Shown here: positions 23,109 through 60,200 of the stretch, piece after piece
Layout of the letters: each line of letters starts with the position of its first letter
How positions within the stretch are numbered: the stretch's first letter is position 1
Assembly (NCBI RefSeq): GCF_030253575.1
Contig: NC_080560.1
Coordinates: forward strand, 32,601,501 to 32,665,500
Length of the DNA stretch: 64,000 nt
Reading direction: 5' to 3'
Origin: Rhododendron vialii
Lineage: Eukaryota; Streptophyta; Magnoliopsida; Ericales; Ericaceae
Translations under genes and position numbers: made by a program
Notes under the pieces: generated by a model
What the model was told of the DNA's origin: nothing
Database searches by the model: none
Seen by the model: only the letters and a program-made list of their open reading frames with translations

Positions 23109-23629
23109 GAGAAAATCTTAAAATGACACCTGAACTTTCACTCCAATGTCACCGAAACACCTGAACTTCATTTTATTTTAATTAAACACCTGAACTTTCA
23201 AAATCTCCAAATTGAGGCACTTGTCGTTTGTCTCCATCCATTTCCTTCACAAATCGGTTGATGTGGCTCATTTTTAGCGTTAAAGAGCCTCACTAAACAT
23301 GTTAGGAAGTGAGCTCAATGCACACAATCACAACCCATGCCAACCCTACTTCATTTTTAAAGTTTAGGTATGAATTAGTGTACCAGTTGGAATTAGCTAT
23401 TATTCATTGATTGTGTGCATTGAGTTCACTTCCTAACATGTATAGTGGGGCCCTTTAACGTCAGAAATGAGCTACATCAGTCGATTTGTGAAGGAAATGG
23501 ATGAAAGCTAACAGCAGGTGCCTCAATTTGGAAATTTTGAAAGTCCAAGCGTTTAATTAAAATAAAGTAAAGTTCAGATGTTTCAATAACATTAGAGTGA
23601 AAATTCAGGTGCCATTTTGAAATTTTCTC
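23109..23629. mobile_element. Large fold-back element upstream of the kinase gene
   Basis: Arms of about 200 bp: GAGAAAATCTTAAAATGACA at the left mirrors the complement of the right end (TGCCATTTTGAAATTTTCTC). The ACACCTGAACTTTCA and CAAATTGAGGCACTTG blocks also have partners in the right arm. The target duplication is not convincing. It ends about 260 bp before the likely kinase leader. Confidence 0.8.
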
Positions 23630-38673: not shown

Positions 38674-39717
38674 ATTTAAGAGTTGGGGTGTGTTTATATT
38701 TTATCCAGTGGGTTAATGTGTTTCTTATCAAGTACTGCATTGCCTTCGTTAAGTGTCACTTGAATTTCTAAGTGGGGAAAAAAAAAAAAAGGGTTCTACA
38801 GACCTTTGTTATTTAGTTCGATTCTTCCTATTTGTTTCATAGTAGTAGTAATTTTTAAGCTAGCTCCTGAAGTTCTTTGATACTCTCAGATCCTTATTTT
38901 TTCGAACCTATACCTTTCATTCTTTTAGATTGAATGGACCTTATCGTTACGCTAATACTCAAAAAAATTGAAGAATGTAGGGGCAAGGACGGAGCTAGAT
39001 TTGTGTAGAGGTATAGAACTTAGAATTCCACGTATTCACATGGTCGTTAGATTTTTAAGTTTTCCTTGCATGTAGTTAGGAATTCAAGCATGATTTCTAC
39101 GGAATGATGTTCTTCAGGAAAAACCTTTATGATAATGTTTTGAAAAGTTTCATTCATAAAGGAAAGAAAAAGGTACAAAAAAAAAAAAAGAAAGTTTCTA
39201 GACATTTGAAAAGTTCAAAGGGACAAATGAAAAACATTGGAATAGGGGGGAAAAGGAATTTGAAGGGATTGGAGTAGAGGGTTAGATGGATTTATTAAAT
39301 TATTTATATTTTCTCTCCAAAAATGAGAAAATATTTGGTTCAAAGTTCCAAATATCAACACAAAAACTCTTTTAACATACAAATAATATGAATTCAAAGT
39401 TGATGTTATGAATTTACATGCAAATGTTGTAAAATTTTATGCAAAAGGCATGAACTCGATTTCAAGGTGATTAAGGAGGTGCATACCATGTTGGACTCAA
39501 GAATGGGTTCTTACTAATAAAAAAAAGGGAAAAAAATTGAAATAGTTTATGTAGTTAAGTATTTGTGTCAATTTGGTCCCTGTAATTTTAATTGACTCGA
39601 TTTACACTATGTACTTTTCATTTTGCTTCAATTTGGTCCAAATACTAACTTCCGTTAGTCCACCGTTAGTTCTTTAAACAACAAAATCATATGGCCCCTT
39701 TTTTTGGGGTTAAAATA

Positions 39718-40070
39718 GACTTGTTCGGCTAAATATATCCTTATTGAATTTTTTTTCGTATTTGTTAGATTTTCGTCAATTTTTTTTGGGGTTATTGCAT
39801 CGTCATGACGAGAGGAATCTAAAAAGTATAAAATTTTGATCGAAATCCAATTTTTTTTGAATAAAGACGAAAAAATTGGCTTATTGGCCTATTTTTGTCT
39901 TTATTCAAAAAAATTAGATTTCGATCGTAATCTTTTACTTTTTAGATTCCTCTTGTTATGACGATGCAATAATTTCCAAAAAAATGACGAAAAACTAACA
40001 AATACGAAAAAAAATTTGAATAAGGACAAAAAAATAGGCCAGTTGGCTTATTTAGCTGAATAGGGTTACT
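39718..40070. repeat. AT-rich fold-back repeat family, fullest copy
   Basis: Nearly palindromic about 39890: TTGTTCGGCTAAATA...TCGTATTTGTTAG on one side, ACAAATACGAAAAAAAATTT...GGCTTATTTAGCTGAA on the other. A half copy lies at 40730-40910. Confidence 0.75.
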
Positions 40071-40581
40071 CATTCCCCTCTTGCCCTAATATATCTCTGA
40101 ACCAAAACACAGCTCGTTCTTCTATTCTCCATTGATAAAGAGGCACTTGGGAAGAAATTTGGTTATAATTTTCTACAAAAAGTGGCCATCGAATTCAACA
40201 GTTTTATGATCAGCCATGAGGCATCATAACCACTGATATTGTCTACATGTTCAACTTGTGGACAAATACTGAGATGCCTTATTGTTCTGAATAGTACTGA
40301 AAATGCATATAGAACCATGTCCAAAAGTCACAACATGATATAGATCCAAAAGTCACAACATGCTAAATAACCATGTCCAAAAGTCAGAATATTATATAAA
40401 CTCAATTCCAAATTTACCATGTCATAACCTAATACATAGACATAACAAACCACTCAACTATGTTACAATAAACCTAACTTAACAGCCCAAGTAGTTACAA
40501 AAAATAGTGCCCTGTCATTCCATTCATTTTCCTACACTTGGCCCATGCATTGATTCCTGACTAGGAATGTTGAAAAATAAA

Positions 40582-40713
40582 GGGAAAATGACGGCCAATG
40601 ACGTGTTTTGATAATTAATACCAGCCAAAGACATTTTGTTCATTAACAAATGTTCTTAGCATGTCCTTGGCTGGGATTAATTATCAAATCACGACCTGGG
40701 CCGTCATTTTTCC
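40582..40713. mobile_element. GGGAAAATGACGG miniature element, copy C
   Basis: Same family as 3530-3661; exact 9-bp duplication AAAAATAAA at 40573-40581 and 40714-40722. Inserted within the loop of the large fold-back. Confidence 0.85.
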
Positions 40714-41498
40714 AAAAATAAATCTAAGCCAATTTTTTCGTCTTTATTCAAAAAAAAATGAATTTCAATAATAATTTTTTACTTTTTAGATTCTTCTCGT
40801 CATGACGATGCAATAACCTCCAAAAAATTGACGAAAAACTAACAAATACGAAAAAAAATTTGAATAAGGACAAAAAATAAAAAAGTTGACTTATTTAGTC
40901 GAACGGGTCTGTTTTAACCCCCAAAAAAAGGGCCATATGATTTTGCTATTTAAAGGACTGACGGCGGACTAACGGAAGTTAGTAATTGGACCGAATTGAA
41001 ACAAAATGGAAAGTACATAGTGTAAATCAAGCTAATTATAACTACATGGACCAAATTGACACGAACACTTAACTACAAGAACTATTACAGTTTTTTTCCC
41101 TAAAAAAAAGGTGCATAACACGTCCAAATGAAATTCGAAAGCTACTCTGTGCCCCTATCTCTAGAGGGCGAGGGTGGCGGCTTTGATATGGTGGAAGCCC
41201 CTCTAAGAAACCCGATAAACTCGGGCTTTGGGGGGCCTTTGCCTTCATTTCAACCACCACTACGGGCTACACTTTTTACATGCATTAGTAGAATGACAAA
41301 AATGACTACGTCATACACTATGAGCAGAAACTTTCCAAACCACATCGAGCCAAAGAATGAGGGATTACTACCATACAAGTGTCAATTTACAAAATCGAAT
41401 CAGAAATCCAGGAAAACAATGGATAACGTTTCTGCATACTCAGCCCTGTGACTTTATACATCAACTGACCTATAACAGCTCCATGAGATTTGTATTAG

Positions 41499-46464: not shown

Positions 46465-46584
46465 GGAAAATGACGGCTCAGAACGTGTTTTTATAATTAA
46501 TACCCGTTAAGAACATTTTCAGCATTAACAATATTCATTGCTTGTCTTTGGCGAGTATTAATTATCAAAACACGTCATTGGCCG
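46465..46584. mobile_element. GGGAAAATGACGG miniature element, copy D, left part (split by an LTR retrotransposon)
   Basis: Starts GGAAAATGACGGCTC and runs through TTATTAATTATCAAAACACGTCATTGGCCG, stopping exactly where the LTR begins. The missing end, GGCCGTCATTTTCCC, resumes at 54982 after 8.4 kb. GGCCG is present on both sides as the target duplication. Confidence 0.9.
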
Positions 46585-47261
46585 TGTCACGCCCTCGATT
46601 TTCAACATAATAAAGTAATACATTTCAATAAAAGAGAAACCTCGCATATCATATACGTTACCCAAATGAGTTTCCCACCTGTTTAATTTACAAACAAGTC
46701 CTTAAGTTTAGATAATTACAACTTTAGTCAAAAGAAAATTCAGTAATAATTAGTTACAAAACCACCTTTAACAAAATGAGATCTTCACAAAGATGACGAA
46801 ATAACCAGTGAAGTCAGCTTCCAAAAGTCTTTTACTGTCAAGCACACAATGCATGCAATAATTTGCCCGGCATCAGAACCTGAAAAGAAAGATTTGGTTG
46901 AGCTACACTAGCCCAGTAGAAAATTCTAAACTCAAGCTATATGTAATTTGAATGAACCATGCACCGAGAATGGATGAGTACTGACAGATACGCCTATACC
47001 ACAAATGACTACCAACAAGCTGCGAATTATCGCCTAAGAGTCCTAGACTTCACATCAATGTCACTAGCCGTTTACTTCTTTAACTAGTTACATTATTAAA
47101 CTCATGTCATCTCACACTTATCTATAATCAAATCAAAACATCTTATTATTCTCCGTATGATAGTACAATCTTTCTCGTGTCCACATTGATCTTCATTAAA
47201 TCCCTTAATTGCAAAACCTTTCTTTTCCTTTAATCCGGTATTTCCCATCAAATAATCACTA

Positions 47262-47490
47262 GGGTCACCTCGGGTCTAGTTCCCTCGAGCGCAGGGTCAC
47301 CCCGAGTCTTTTCCCTCAATAACAATAATCGGGTGAGGTCACCTTGGGTCTAGTTCCCTCGAGCGCAGGGTCACCCCAAGTCTTTTCCTCCAATAATATG
47401 AATCAGTTGGGTCACCTCGGGTCTAGTTCCCTCGAGCGCAGGGTCACCCCGAGTCTTTTCCCTCAATAACGACCACTTGGGTCACCTTTC
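47262..47490. repeat. About 72-bp tandem repeats within the LTR
   Basis: GGGTCACCTCGGGTCTAG, followed by TTCCCTCGAGCGCAGGGTC and GAGTCTTTTCCCTCAATAA, is repeated from about 47262, 47337 and 47409, with a partial fourth at 47478. The same array occurs at 53055-53283 in the other LTR. Confidence 0.9.
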
Positions 47491-48201
47491 ACACTTTTCA
47501 CAATCGACATCATTTCATAATCAATTTCATCATCCCTTTAACGGTTATACCACTGAATTTTAATTAGTCATTATGTGACTCCACAAATATACATGTTCAT
47601 GCCTCCTCTTTTGTTTACATACCCGCATCTTACATGACGTACTAAGCCCATACATAAATTCCTACAATACTCTGTCCATTAGTTATTCACTTTCATTCCG
47701 CTTCCCATTTCACAAACATCCATTCATTCAATTAAATCCAAAGACCATTTAATCAATCGCATGGTATTATAAGACCAACAATCTACCATATCGCATATAC
47801 TCAAATACACACGTCCTCACCGTACCCCTAAGTACACCCCCGTACCTTCGCATACCACATATCAACCCACGACTAGACTCTACGATGCCCGATTATCTAG
47901 TTTCTATACTCGGAGTCTGTAAAAGCATGCACTGTGGGAATCTAAGAATCTTACGAGTTAAGAGAGAAAACGGATTGCAAAACTACTCATCAAATCCCTA
48001 GACATGATCACTCTAGTCCATTGAATGCCACTCTAAGTGAGGAACGAGTAATACTCACCAAAACACTTGGAATGATGCGTAAACAAACTCATAAGAGTCA
48101 AAGAAAAGCTTCGACATACGAGTTGAAGGATATAGGGAAGCAGCTGAAAGATACTGCAGCAGCTCAAGAAAGCAGCTGAAAGCAGCTCAAACTCCTAATC
48201 T

Positions 48202-48602
48202 CCTACCGGTAGGCAGGCAAGTCCTACCGGTAGAACTTGAAAACAAAAGGGCCAACATCTGAACAAAGCCGCTTGACCTACCGGTAGGTAAAAAGTTCCT
48301 ACCGGTAGAAGCACTTGACCTACCGGTAGGTGAGAAGTTCCTACCGGTAGAAATTGGGAACAGAAAGGTCAACAGTTGAACGAAATAATTTTTGTACTTG
48401 ACCTACCGGTAGGTAAGGAATTCCTACCGGTAGGAATCGAATTCGTTGAGCAGCTTTTGAGCTGCTGCTGTACGTTTGAGCTGGTTACGAAGGAATTTCT
48501 CAATCGTTCTACCGGTAGGTGAAGAGTTCCTACCGGTAGGGAATCGATTTTCTGGTAAATTAACAACGTTCTACCGGTAGAAAGGACGGGCCTACCGGTA
48601 GG
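48202..48602. repeat. Array of 12 TACCGGTA palindromes in phased pairs (3' LTR copy)
   Basis: TACCGGTA starts at 48204/48225, 48279/48300, 48321/48342, 48404/48425, 48510/48531 and 48572/48593. Every pair is exactly 21 bp apart, and the second and third pairs form four sites at constant 21-bp steps. The extended core is usually CCTACCGGTAGG, a 12-bp perfect palindrome. Sequence between the sites is not conserved except short words such as AAGTTC. Confidence 0.95.
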
Positions 48603-49188
48603 AATCCAGGAAAAATAGACAATTCTGACAGCGACTACGAATTTTCAATCCAAACTTAAACACGACATTACAAGCACGATTCATGCACCAAATCACTCAT
48701 AAAACATATAAAGAGAGGTAGAATTCCCTACCTCAAGTGATTCGATCGAAACCCAAGCGATTGATCAAGCCCTAGACTCCGAAAACTTCAAAATCAACCG
48801 AATCTCCTCCTCCGAGCGAAACCCACGAAATTTCAAGCTCAACAACGTGAATGGATGAAGGTTTGGAGGTTATTTACCATGGGTTTTGAGTCCGGGTTGG
48901 AGAGGGAAAAAGAGAGTGTGTGTGTGTCGAGAGAGAGGGAGAGCCGAGAGAGAGACAGCCGAGAGAAAGAAGAAAAAAAAATGAAAAGGGGAAAGATGTT
49001 CCCTGGGAATAATAGAGGTGAGGGAAATAATCCCATGCCCTCACACCACACACTCACACATGCAACTCTCATCTATTTACCTTTATATCCTTCCACAAAT
49101 ACGCCATTCCATATATCCACACCGTTTATCTCGACAAGCCGTACAGTTATATAAAAAAAAATATAGGCCTAAAATACGGGTCTCTACA

Positions 49189-49202
49189 CCCTACCCTCCT
49201 TA
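49189..49202 (-). other. Polypurine tract of the retrotransposon
   Basis: On the minus strand AAGGAGGGTAGGG abuts the LTR start TGTAGAG. Typical second-strand primer. Confidence 0.85.
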
Positions 49203-51591: not shown

Positions 51592-52110
51592 TTACTGTTT
51601 CGACGTATGTGTTTCCTGCTGCATCGAGCTCGACTCACCATGTACTCCCAATTCCCGAAGACAATTCCTTGCCATGTGGCCACGTTCACCGCAAGTATAA
51701 CAAGATCCCCCACGCCATGGGCATTGAGAACGAATATGACCAAGCTGACGACATCGATAACACACAGTCTGACACTTGAGAAGAGCTCTTGGAGTCCCGA
51801 TATAAAAAGGTGGCTTAAAGCCCTGCTGGTCCTGAGTAAAGTGATTTAATACTCTAGGTTTCTGCCTTCCTGAACTCTCAACACTCTTAGAAGATGATTT
51901 TGTGCTAACGACTCGATGCCTAATTTCTCCCACATTCACACCACCTTGCGCACCTTCCAGTGTCTCGACACCTTTTCCGCACTCAGCAATCTCAGGAAAC
52001 ATCGCTTCATCCCTGGTACATTGACTCACTTCATTCTCCCCGTTTGCACTACAGCCCTGGTGCTCACGATCCCCAGTCTCACCACACCTATCTCCACGTC
52101 TCGAAGACAT
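51592..52110 (-). CDS. gag: Short Gag-like protein with two CCHC zinc knuckles
   Basis: 172 residues from an ATG about 270 bp inside the 5' LTR border. Two CX2CX4HX4C knuckles: C117-C130 (CYRCRQLGHIRSQC) and C137-C150 (CYTCGERGHMARNC), the nucleic-acid-binding part of Gag nucleocapsid. The N-terminal 110 residues are polar and low in hydrophobics and do not show the usual capsid (retrotransposon gag) domain, so the capsid appears deleted. A function in packaging by a helper element is conceivable. The short length suggests a nucleocapsid-only derivative. Confidence 0.8.
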   Translation of the reverse strand: MSSRRGDRCGETGDREHQGCSANGENEVSQCTRDEAMFPEIAECGKGVETLEGAQGGVNVGEIRHRVVSTKSSSKSVESSGRQKPRVLNHFTQDQQGFKPPFYIGTPRALLKCQTVCYRCRQLGHIRSQCPWRGGSCYTCGERGHMARNCLRELGVHGESSSMQQETHTSKQ

Positions 52111-52362: not shown

Positions 52363-52374
52363 GCTCTGATACCA
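52363..52374 (-). other. Primer-binding site for initiator tRNA-Met
   Basis: On the minus strand TGGTATCAGAGC, complementary to the 3' end of plant initiator tRNA-Met, three bases from the 5' LTR end. Confidence 0.93.
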
Positions 52375-52377
52375 AGT

Positions 52378-54981
52378 TGTCACGCCCTCGATTTTCAACA
52401 TAATAAAGTAATACATTTCAATAAAAGAGAAACCTCGCATATCATATACGTTACCCAAATGAGTTTCCCACCTGTTTAATTTACAAACAAGTCCTTAAGT
52501 TTAGATAATTACAACTTTAGTCAAAAGAAAATTCAGTAATAATTAGTTACAAAACCACCTTTAACAAAATGAGATCTTCACAAAGATGACGAAATAACCA
52601 GTGAAGTCAGCTTCCAAAAGTCTTTTACTGTCAAGCACACAATGCATGCAATAATTTGCCCGGCATCAGAACCTGAAAAGAAAGATTTGGTTGAGCTACA
52701 CTAGCCCAGTAGAAAATTCTAAACTCAAGCTATATGTAATTTGAATGAACCATGCACCGAGAATGGATGAGTACTGACAGATACGCCTATACCACAAATG
52801 ACTACCAACAAGCTGCGAATTATCGCCTAAGAGTCCTAGACTTCACATCAATGTCACTAGCCGTTTACTTCTTTAACTAGTTACATTATTAAACTCATGT
52901 CATCTCACACTTATCTATAATCAAATCAAAACATCTTATTATTCTCCGTATGATAGTACAATCTTTCTCGTGTCCACATTGATCTTCATTAAATCCCTTA
53001 ATTGCAAAACCTTTCTTTTCCTTTAATCCGGTATTTCCCATCAAATAATCACTAGGGTCACCTCGGGTCTAGTTCCCTCGAGCGCAGGGTCACCCCGAGT
53101 CTTTTCCCTCAATAACAATAATCGGGTGGGGTCACCTTGGGTCTAGTTCCCTCGAGCGCAGGGTCACCCCAAGTCTTTTCCTCCAATAATATGAATCAGT
53201 TGGGTCACCTCGGGTCTAGTTCCCTCGAGCGCAGGGTCACCCCGAGTCTTTTCCCTCAATAACGACCACTTGGGTCACCTTTCACACTTTTCACAATCGA
53301 CATCATTTCATAATCAATTTCATCATCCCTTTAACGGTTATACCACTGAATTTTAATTAGTCATTATGTGACTCCACAAATATACATGTTCATGCCTCCT
53401 CTTTTGTTTACATACCCGCATCTTACATGACGTACTAAGCCCATACATAAATTCCTACAATACTCTGTCCATTAGTTATTCACTTTCATTCCGCTTCCCA
53501 TTTCACAAACATCCATTCATTCAATTAAATCCAAAGACCATTTAATCAATCGCATGGTATTATAAGACCAACAATCTACCATATCGCATATACTCAAATA
53601 CACACGTCCTCACCGTACCCCTAAGTACACCCCCGTACCTTCGCATACCACATATCAACCCACGACTAGACTCTACGATGCCCGATTATCTAGTTTCTAT
53701 ACTCGGAGTCTGTAAAAGCATGCACTGTGGGAATCTAAGAATCTTACGAGTTAAGAGAGAAAACGGATTGCAAAACTACTCATCAAATCCCTAGACATGA
53801 TCACTCTAGTCCATTGAATGCCACTCTAAGTGAGGAACGAGTAATACTCACCAAAACACTTGGAATGATGCGTAAACAAACTCATAAGAGTCAAAGAAAA
53901 GCTTCGACATACGAGTTGAAGGATATAGGGAAGCAGCTGAAAGATACTGCAGCAGCTCAAGAAAGCAGCTGAAAGCAGCTCAAACTCCTAATCTCCTACC
54001 GGTAGGCAGGCAAGTCCTACCGGTAGAACTTGAAAACAAAAGGGCCAACATCTGAACAAAGCCGCTTGACCTACCGGTAGGTAAAAAGTTCCTACCGGTA
54101 GAAGCACTTGACCTACCGGTAGGTGAGAAGTTCCTACCGGTAGAAATTGGGAACAGAAAGGTCAACAGTTGAACGAAATAATTTTTGTACTTGACCTACC
54201 GGTAGGTAAGGAATTCCTACCGGTAGGAATCGAATTCGTTGAGCAGCTTTTGAGCTGCTGCTGTACGTTTGAGCTGGTTACGAAGGAATTTCTCAATCGT
54301 TCTACCGGTAGGTGAAGAGTTCCTACCGGTAGGGAATCGATTTTCTGGTAAATTAACAACGTTCTACCGGTAGAAAGGACGGGCCTACCGGTAGGAATCC
54401 AGGAAAAATAGACAATTCTGACAGCGACTACGAATTTTCAATCCAAACTTAAACACGACATTACAAGCACGATTCATGCACCAAATCACTCATAAAACAT
54501 ATAAAGAGAGGTAGAATTCCCTACCTCAAGTGATTCGATCGAAACCCAAGCGATTGATCAAGCCCTAGACTCCGAAAACTTCAAAATCAACCGAATCTCC
54601 TCCTCCGAGCGAAACCCACGAAATTTCAAGCTCAACAATGTGAATGGATGAAGGTTTGGAGGTTATTTACCATGGGTTTTGAGTCCGGGTTGGAGAGGGA
54701 AAAAGAGAGTGTGTGTGTGTCGAGAGAGAGGGAGAGCCGAGAGAGAGACAGCCGAGAGAAAGAAGAAAAAAAAATGAAAAGGGGAAAGATGTTCCCTGGG
54801 AATAATAGAGGTGAGGGAAATAATCCCATGCCCTCACACCACACACTCACACATGCAACTCTCATCTATTTACCTTTATATCCTTCCACAAATACGCCAT
54901 TCCATATATCCACACCGTTTATCTCGACAAGCCGTACAGTTATATAAAAAAAAATATAGGCCTAAAATACGGGTCTCTACA
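52378..54981 (-). repeat. 5' LTR (element sense) of the retrotransposon
   Basis: Same 2604-bp length as the partner. I noticed only two substitutions (near 53128 versus 47335, and 54639 versus 48846). Contains the likely promoter for the element. The palindrome array is at 53997-54393. Confidence 0.95.
53995..54395. repeat. Array of 12 TACCGGTA palindromes in phased pairs (5' LTR copy)
   Basis: Identical arrangement to 48202-48602, shifted by 5793 bp. In element sense it lies between about 590 and 990 bp into the 5' LTR, where it could act on element transcription. Confidence 0.95.
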
Positions 54982-54986
54982 GGCCG

Positions 54987-57299: not shown

Positions 57300-60200
57300 A
57301 TGGCTCCCGAGGATAAAAAACAAGGAGGCGGTTTCTTCGCCTCGATCACTTCCAGCCTCTCCAATTTCGGCAAAACCGTCAATGGGTATGCATCGAATTC
57401 ATTCCTATCCTCCTACTTTTGTTCCCTTGTCGCCTAAGAGATAATTTTTGTTATCATTTTTTTTTCCCGGTTTTGAAATTGCAAATATACTTTTGTCATG
57501 TTTGATTGGTCGGAATTTGTCGCGGTTCGGGTGTATCGGTCGTAGCGTAACGGTATCCGGAGATGTGAATTTTTAAGAATTTCGCGTGACATATCACCGA
57601 TACGGCGATACCACCGTTACGTATTGGCCGTAATTTTGACCGAAACGGACCGATACCATTGTTACGTATCGAGTACCATTATGTAACACGATACATATGC
57701 GATTTTCCTTTACACTGCAATATCGGTCGTATTGGGACTCAGACGTACCGGTACTGATACATATCGGCATACACCAATACGGATACGTATCACCGATATT
57801 TCAAACCGTGTGTCTATACGATAATTAGGGATTAATAGTTGCATAACCATGACAACAGGTCAGTTTGCCCGGGAAATTTGTAACCGAAACCAACGGGTTT
57901 TCTATCACCTAAACCGATGGGTTTTCTATCACCTAGACCGTAACCATACTCGACTGTAACCACACAATTACAGGTTCGGTTTGGGTATGGTTCGGATTCA
58001 AAAACCGAGCCGTTTGTTTCAAATTAAAAATGAAAACCAAATCCTCAGTTCAAAAGTCGGATAAAAGTATTGTATATCTTATGTTTTGTGGTAGTCCAAG
58101 AAAGTTATCCCTCCTCTAGTTGTTACAATCAACGGTAGTTATACTGTGCCCCAGAATTTGTAGTGCAATCTAGTTCTATCCGGCCAATCAAATATGACCA
58201 CAAGCCCCTTGTGTATTTTGGTTTTATGGTAAAAGCCCTCTTCTATCCTTTAGGGCTCATGCATGATGCTGCAAATGTTAATCATTATCTTTTTTGTTCT
58301 ATTACCTCTATTAACACAAACAACGCAACAGCAATTTGTACGTGTACCTCCTGAGACCATTTAGTTGGAAATATAATCAACATATGCACAAGATGGGTAG
58401 CCTGGTTTAAGCAAAATGTTTACTTGAAGGTTATGTTTGATTGGCCGGAATGGTTGAGAATTCCATAGGACCAGTTAGCAATACCTCATCTTCGGAGGTA
58501 GTGGATATCCCAATTGTAGGATTTGTTGGTCAACAACTATGTAATCACCTCATAAATTATTGCATTCAAACAATGAAATGGCCTTATACGGGTTTTGTAA
58601 CCCCAAGTTTATCCTGGTAACAAAACAGGTCCAAAAAAAAGTAAAGGAAAAGCCATATTGGATCTAGTAGGTATCTATATTTCCAGTAAGTTCTGAAGGA
58701 AGGTTCATCAAATAGTTAAGTGAGTCAATGACTAGTTTGGGGTAGAGGGAGAGAGACTATAGTAAAAGGAACTCCTTTGACCAAACTAAGTATTGATACT
58801 TGACCTTCATTTAGGAGACAATAATATTTTACAATTTTGTTTCTGATGCTCTTTTCCAATTTTAGGAATGTTTTTGTGCTTGATGAAAGGTATGCATGAA
58901 TATTCATGTTCGTCGGTTCGAGTTTCACGCATAGTGCTAGTTGTTATGCTTATCATTCACTAGACAGATAAAAACATTAATTGAAGCCTCAGTGGTTTGA
59001 ATATTTTGTCATGATTGCCGTCGTCCTTTCGTTAAAGTAAATGCGTGTGATTAATGTGAAGCGAAATCCCACATTGCCTGGGTACCAATGTAATAATATA
59101 AGCGTGAGGGCATTCTCACTTCAATAGCTAACTTTTGAGGTTGAGTTCTACCCAAGAGTCAAGACCGTGTAAAATGGTATCAGAGCTAGATACCAGAGAT
59201 GGGTAGGATGTGTGTCCTTGCCCTGCACGTGGTAAGTGCTGCCCAGTGAGCACGCTGCGCGTGAGGGGGAGGGTGTGAAGCGAAGTCCCACATCGCCTGG
59301 GTACCAATACAATACAATATTACAATGTACGTAAGCATGATGACACCCTCACTTCAAGATAGCTTTTGGGGTTGAGTTCTATCCAAAACCGTGTAACATT
59401 AAATATTAAATGCTTGCCGAATATTCTATTTGTTGTGCGTGTAACTATGTCACAGTCTTATACCATCCGTCATCTGATGTTTCTTGCATATTGTCACATC
59501 AAATAGCAGCTTTTGTAGTGATATCTCGATCCGAAGTACATTACAATGCTAGATAGAATTTCATGAAATACTAGACAGTGACTTTTGACCTTCTTGGTAA
59601 AATTTGTAGTCATTGACCTCCAGCCCCTATTTTACCTCGTCACTTGCCTCAACAATATCTTCTTCTTTCTTGATGGTCGAGGCTGGAGTTCCATTGTCAT
59701 GGTTGGTCGATACTCGATACCATCGATTGATAGTGTTCAGGGTGTTTATTGTCCATTTAACTTTCATGTGCTGAAGAATCTGGTCCTAACTAAGTTACTA
59801 TCCTGTTGTGTTATTCTTGTCCAGTATGTTAGGTTATGAAGGCCTGGAAGTTGTAAATCCTGAAGGGGGAACTGAAGATGCTGAAGCCGAAGCACAAAGA
59901 GGAAGATGGAAACAAGAGGTGCATATATGTTTTTTTCCCAGCTTCTTTTTATTTTTTTGCATTCCATAATTTTTGGCTTCCTTTTTAGCCATGTCCTGGG
60001 GATTTTCTATTTGTGTAGTCTTATATTATATCAATTGAGAAGATTCAACAAGACCATTATGCATCTATTTTCTATTTGGTGAAGATCATTATGCATCTAC
60101 TGTAGAATGTACGGATTTATTAGGTCTCGGGTTCATGTTGCAATTCCATCTCCAACTGAGACCACTCGACCGATATCTTTCATGTGGTGCATGAGTCCAT

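Follow-up and report, generated by a model that had tools for sequence, protein, structure and literature searches.

Helically phased, paired palindromes in the LTRs of a very young Rhododendron vialii retrotransposon: a candidate binding array for a dimeric protein

Both long terminal repeats (LTRs) of a very young retrotransposon in Rhododendron vialii carry an array of twelve palindromic sites set in six pairs, each pair at exactly 21 bp. The array is probably a cis-regulatory LTR element, with its sites lined up for a candidate dimeric, sequence-specific protein whose copies would cooperate on one face of the DNA, and we give this reading a probability of about 0.68. The sites recur in related LTRs, their cores are conserved against diverging spacers, and the gaps between them keep a 10.5-bp register. 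From this architecture we infer protein binding and cooperation.

The palindromic octamer TACCGGTA occurs 25 times in the window, the whole 64-kb stretch of DNA that was analysed, against 0.24 expected and a largest count of 2 in 100 shuffles. Twelve copies lie at 48204-48600, twelve at 53997-54393, and one stands alone at 57746. The arrayed sites are located as follows:

48204..48232, no strand: TACCGGTA pair 1, 21 bp
48279..48307, no strand: TACCGGTA pair 2, 21 bp
48321..48349, no strand: TACCGGTA pair 3, 21 bp
48404..48432, no strand: TACCGGTA pair 4, 21 bp
48510..48538, no strand: TACCGGTA pair 5, 21 bp
48572..48600, no strand: TACCGGTA pair 6, 21 bp
53997..54393, no strand: the array again, with 12 sites, in the 5' LTR

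The first-pass annotation had described twelve palindromes in six pairs at exactly 21 bp within one LTR and a copy of the array in the other, and both descriptions are confirmed: the site positions of the second array give the same gap series and again six 21-bp pairs. The start-to-start gaps of the array at 48204-48600 are 21, 54, 21, 21, 21, 62, 21, 85, 21, 41 and 21 bp. As also annotated, the inter-pair gaps of 62, 85 and 41 bp each lie no more than 1 bp from a multiple of 21; the gap of 54 bp is no such multiple, yet it lies 1.5 bp from 52.5 bp, or five helical turns. For the four linkers between pairs in the window array alone, the helical register has a p value of 0.012. The annotated statement that the cores are "usually" a 12-bp palindrome was generously worded, with the 12-mer CCTACCGGTAGG present at 7 of the 12 array sites, and it holds in full for the 10-mer CTACCGGTAG, which is present at all 12. 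The rest of the window LTR contains no one-mismatch copy of TACCGGTA outside the sites.

CpG is undepleted in the window array (22 against 21.9 expected, with 12 of the 22 inside cores), and the CpG ratio outside the element in the same window is 0.64. This says little, because the copy is so young. AGCAGCT / AGCTGCT repeats lie beside the array at 48140-48200 and inside it at 48440-48475, and likewise in L064, L071 and L072, three of the related sequences described below. The lone TACCGGTA at 57746, outside the element, sits among several TACGTATCGG-like words at 57600-57780. Inverted repeats elsewhere in the window include a 0.5-kb self-complementary stretch (23109-23629, 79%) and a foldback-copy group at 39526-41101.

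The element that carries the array is bounded by paired LTRs with TG..CA ends and a 5-bp target-site duplication, GGCCG. Its features are:

46580..46584, no strand: target-site duplication GGCCG, left
46585..49188, minus strand: 3' LTR, 2604 bp, TG..CA
49189..49201, minus strand: polypurine-rich tract adjoining the 3' LTR, identified by eye
51592..52110, minus strand: 172-aa gag-like ORF containing zinc knuckles (PF00098, E 6.5e-11)
52363..52374, minus strand: primer-binding site TGGTATCAGAGC, identified by eye
52378..54981, minus strand: 5' LTR, 2604 bp
54982..54986, no strand: target-site duplication GGCCG, right

The two LTRs, 46585-49188 and 52378-54981, differ at 2 positions over 2604 bp each, which indicates a very young insertion. 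The positions of the polypurine tract and of the primer-binding site TGGTATCAGAGC, which we take to be of the initiator-Met type, place the element on the minus strand. Its internal region spans 3189 bp and contains no ORF of at least 120 aa besides the gag-like one, so this copy is probably non-autonomous. Both LTRs also contain a second tandem repeat (47254-47470 and 53047-53263), consisting of three 73-74-bp units with 86% matches.

L065, a related element that carries such an array, contains a single long ORF of 1627 aa, which was run against Pfam in four pieces. Retrotrans_gag, Ty3_capsid, RVP_2, RVT_1, RT_RNaseH, and Integrase_H2C2 domains scored above the Pfam cut-off, the integrase core rve (25.0 bits) fell below its 32.6-bit cut-off, and the chromodomain PF00385 (E 4.7e-5, 23.7 bits) fell below its 25.1-bit cut-off. 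Reverse transcriptase lies ahead of integrase in L065, which is the Ty3/gypsy order, and assignment of L065-type elements to the chromovirus branch is likely but not certain. L065 resembles the window copy at 72% over 253 bp of the LTR and at 90% over 71 bp at the start of the internal region. Judged by its structure and by this relative, the window carrier is a very young Ty3/gypsy-type LTR retrotransposon. In L066, another copy, the LTR start is overlapped by an ORF at 310-1515 whose product matches the KIB1-4 beta-propeller (PF03478, E 1.3e-30).

In the host assembly (532,647,506 bases in 13 contigs), TACCGGTA occurs 12145 times and forms 2550 pairs at exactly 21 bp, a count that includes copies of the same elements and therefore non-independent events. 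The one control used, the reversed octamer, yields 0 such pairs from 9248 occurrences. Twenty arrays were listed, none beyond the first 6.1 Mb of contig 1, and all were fetched. They were picked through an exact 21-bp pair, which biases the sample toward intact cores and 21-bp pairs and leaves the longer gaps and the flanks free of that bias; many of the arrays are related, so their gaps and contexts are not independent. For the window element and six others (L064 and L065 to L069), the two LTRs were delimited and the array falls within them. The surroundings of L071 align with the full window LTR and those of L072, L070, and L075 with sections of it; a location within an LTR was established for none of L073, L074, L076, and L077.

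No other palindromic octamer was similarly phased in 13 fetched stretches and the window: TA repeats aside, none formed three or more pairs of equal octamers at distances of up to 70 bp. A search of viral_contigs returned 7 single pairs, 5 of them in one common repeated context, and no array among these matches. A PPT-type pattern matched 1 viral stretch and 37 genome_contigs stretches with titles of bacteria, archaea, and MAGs, and a gag search of public collections returned no relative. Within the open-licence literature, no paper among the matches listed had LTR arrays of TACCGGTA as its topic by title.

Spacing was analysed in 15 of the 20 arrays plus the window, the five omitted being second LTRs of elements already counted, and this set collapses to 11 distinct gap lists. 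With one-mismatch sites allowed, 52 of the 91 adjacent gaps in these lists are 20-21 bp; together with the 2550 exact pairs genome-wide, this shows that the spacing does not vary freely among other copies. Of the 35 gaps of at least 24 bp, 33 deviate by no more than 2 bp from a multiple of 10.5 bp, where the tolerance was picked after the gaps had been seen and the chance expectation is a little under half. These same gaps give an R of 0.79, with 10.5 bp the best period in a scan of 6-20 bp. Exact sites alone behave alike: 35 gaps of at least 25 bp give an R of 0.70 with best periods of 10.5-10.6 bp in the 6-20 bp scan, and the 19 unique gap values give an R of 0.57 (p 0.002). In a jitter null for exact sites, in which common gaps of related arrays, as grouped by the analyst, were shifted jointly, the observed mean cosine near 10.5 bp was reached in 0 of 5000 runs, and the best R over any period had a p value of 0.0004.

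Fifteen of the 35 gaps fall at odd multiples of 10.5 bp (31-33 and 51-54 bp), which cannot be produced by adding 21-bp units. Exceptions to the register are gaps of 14, 16, and 18 bp in L057, 29 and 19 bp in L064, and 34 bp in L050. One pair-to-pair gap measures 125 bp in L071 (4764-4889) and 62 bp in the window (48342-48404), a 63-bp difference equal to six helical turns, and the extra 63 bp in L071 contains partial site copies, CCGGTAGG.

The divergence of cores and spacers can be compared within the window array, which contains two diverged copies of a pair-linker-pair module:

48194..48438, no strand: two modules, compared as 48194-48313 and 48311-48438 with an approximate junction

The modules align over their full length with one 8-bp gap and differ at 0 of 32 core bases against 32 of 88 other aligned bases (Fisher 1e-5), or at 0 of 40 against 32 of 80 when a 10-bp core is used. 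Among the six window pairs, the cores are invariant, and comparisons at the inner 9 spacer positions show a difference in 52% of cases. The annotated impression that the sites rather than the units are conserved is borne out by these counts. Five comparisons between arrays of different LTRs gave the following changes:

Window and L071: cores 0/96; array outside cores 12/356
Window and L064: cores 0/96; array outside cores 55/369
L067 and L065: cores 0/80; array outside cores 67/294
L067 and L070: cores 1/80; array outside cores 76/296
L067 and L069: cores 0/80; array outside cores 0/298

Between 0 and 26% of the non-core array bases differ in these comparisons. The window-L071 comparison is weak evidence because the array outside the cores is conserved too, against 212 of 2101 differing bases in the rest of the LTR, and the L067-L069 comparison says nothing, with no change either in the cores or outside them. 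Cores therefore do not decay as fast as spacers in three of the five comparisons, where the difference is clear, with one comparison weak and one silent.

The shape of the motif was derived from 81 distinct contexts of clustered sites, many of them related, which provide 162 half-sites. C precedes TACC in 151 of these; this flanking C/G played no part in picking the sites. The next outward base is C or T in 97% and the one after it is T in 62%, so that information fades outward, and the consensus is about (T)YCTACCGGTAGR(A). In the window, dyad symmetry extends beyond the invariant 10-mer (35 matches, where 24.4 would be expected; p 0.007). The larger set gives a mixed result for this extra symmetry: it holds at flank positions 3 and 5 (p 0.02 and 0.001) but not at 2 and 6 (p 0.21 and 0.054), and position 4 goes in the opposite direction.

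Plain tandem-repeat expansion, which the first-pass annotation had named as the competing explanation, would hold that 21-, 42- or ~120-bp units were duplicated, that the spacing was inherited, and that the cores are alike merely from recency. Signs of such growth are present: Tandem Repeats Finder reports 21- and 42-bp units in the array, the alignment of linkers 1-2 and 3-4 scores 45.5 against a maximum of 26 over 500 shuffles and marks them as homologous, and the modules align over their whole length. Expansion does not explain why the unchanged cores of two modules stand among so many changed bases, why the LTR retains no one-mismatch core, or why gaps fall at odd multiples of 10.5 bp, and core conservation between LTRs, clear in three of five comparisons and weak or silent in the other two, also speaks against it. 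The equal divergence of cores and spacers expected of a neutral tandem repeat was found neither in the modules nor in those three comparisons. Expansion is largely refuted as a sufficient cause, and we consider it improbable as the whole explanation; it remains as the process by which the array grew, and to that extent the annotated alternative was right.

An element acting as RNA is likewise an unlikely explanation. Each pair could form a hairpin with a 12-bp stem and a 9-nt loop, the array could promote dimerisation of genomic RNA for packaging, or double-stranded RNA could attract silencing. For the minus-strand RNA, the predicted fold has an energy of -179 kcal/mol (z -12.3) and shows 4 of the 6 pairs as hairpins of their own, and the array possibly lies in a transcribed leader; palindromes, however, fold by construction, and hairpins would leave the whole-turn gaps between pairs unexplained. 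Complementarity at flank positions 2 to 8 separates the two readings, with 37 of 84 matches for the single-site dyad and 17 of 84 for the hairpin arms, which favours DNA. By position (n=12), the dyad and hairpin counts are 8 and 2 at position 3, 7 and 0 at position 5, 8 and 6 at position 2, and 2 and 2 at position 8. Since flank complementarity follows the single-site dyad, RNA hairpins are not favoured as the cause, and the dyad together with the helical register favours a DNA-bound protein over an RNA signal. CCTACC, present in 108 of the 162 half-sites, raises the distinct idea of an AC-I type MYB enhancer as in tobacco Tto1, in which CCTACC and its mirror image would be back-to-back MYB half-sites. 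A search of the open-licence literature for the 13-bp Tto1 motif returned no Tto1 paper by title; the excerpted text of PMC6762207 describes activation of Tto1 by NtMYB2. The full MYB AC-I word ACCTACC occurs in just 29 of 162 half-sites, T being commonest (62%) at the position of its first base, and the invariant part is centred on the dyad rather than on the AC-I element. MYB AC-I is accordingly rejected as a full explanation and is decidedly improbable. Nucleosome phasing, by which the 10.5-bp register would stem from how the DNA is rotationally set on the histone core and not from a specific protein, is very unlikely: it would fit the whole-turn register, but it does not require an exact 10-12-bp palindrome, and the linkers of 7 arrays show no clear 10-bp autocorrelation of AA/TT/TA, with small values throughout. 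Palindromes serving as insertion targets would not account for an array inside an LTR, and the excerpted text of PMC6911290 reports only a slight preference for palindromic targets.

The position of the array within the LTR bears on how it might act. Eight related LTR sequences were aligned; two of them cover the surroundings of the array without delimited LTR ends, and L067 is very similar to L069. Two splice-like signals are conserved in this alignment:

48730..48731, minus strand: putative 5' splice site GT (GAG/GTAGGG), with GAGGTAGG in 8/8 aligned LTR sequences; splice role inferred
46880..46881, minus strand: putative 3' splice site AG (TTTCTTTTCAG/GT), with TTTCAGGT in 7/8 aligned LTR sequences; splice role inferred

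In the sense of the element, GAGGTAGG lies upstream of the array, ~130 bp away in the window, and TTTCAGGT lies far downstream, so the array may be located inside a leader intron. Should the putative intron be real, transcription would start upstream of the array, which was counted against the regulatory reading. The array would then act from within transcribed DNA, in the manner of some plant first-intron enhancers. Copying of the spliced RNA would remove such an intron from a transcribed LTR.

The preferred reading remains that of a binding array for a dimeric protein on one DNA face, as the first-pass annotation had proposed; it is supported in that neither the spacing in other copies nor the relative decay of cores and spacers went against it. 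One dimer would bind each palindrome of about YCTACCGGTAGR, and dimers two turns apart, or at further whole-turn sites, would lie on the same helix face and bind cooperatively. LTR transcription might thereby be switched on, or the element kept unsilenced. The array grew via duplicated pair-plus-linker modules and would have been retained by selection in transposing lineages. To our knowledge, no plant protein binding this palindrome has been described. The reading predicts that an extra half turn between sites destroys function and that an extra full turn does not, and the paired site offers a ready bait for finding the protein.

A wider reading is possible and is put forward tentatively. Several related chromovirus-type LTR families may have a common operator array, read by one protein, host-encoded or supplied by another element, that polymerises along one DNA face and protects or activates the LTR. 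If so, selection would act on the spacing rule in all of these families, which would then be competing for, or hiding behind, the same protein. The array bears on how young LTR retrotransposons remain transcribed under silencing; the switches known to us in LTRs consist of a few scattered sites. Here, sequence alone yields a precise, testable architecture of site, dyad, and whole-turn spacing that is common to related families in one genome.

In phased operator arrays, palindromes are placed at whole helical turns and cooperative dimers occupy one face of the DNA; we do not know of such arrays as a common trait of plant LTR retrotransposon families. The Tto1 LTR enhancer is a plant LTR cis-element with a CCTACC-like core, and the present array is similar in both respects. 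Tto1 is a Ty1/copia element with a non-palindromic motif in few copies, and its AC-I word is not the conserved part here. Rider has a stress-responsive LTR promoter in which host transcription-factor sites are thought to drive the element, according to the excerpted text of PMC6762207. LTRs of the Rider type, as described there, contain several different single elements, in contrast to the long phased array of one palindrome in the window (PMC6762207). The VANC motifs of Arabidopsis VANDAL transposons are dense in non-coding transposon DNA, are tandemly duplicated, vary between related transposons, and are read by a sequence-specific protein that responds to motif density (PMC5735166, in excerpt). 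The word "spacing" is absent from the text of PMC5735166. As described there, the VANC motif YAGTATTAY is non-palindromic and lies in one orientation, whereas the present motif is a palindrome in an LTR retrotransposon (PMC5735166). VANDAL also encodes its own binding protein, whereas the long ORF of L065 contains gag-pol domains only and the window copy, among ORFs of at least 120 aa, shows gag only. Like the VANC targets of that excerpt, the window array is dense, lies in non-coding transposon DNA, and has grown by duplication.
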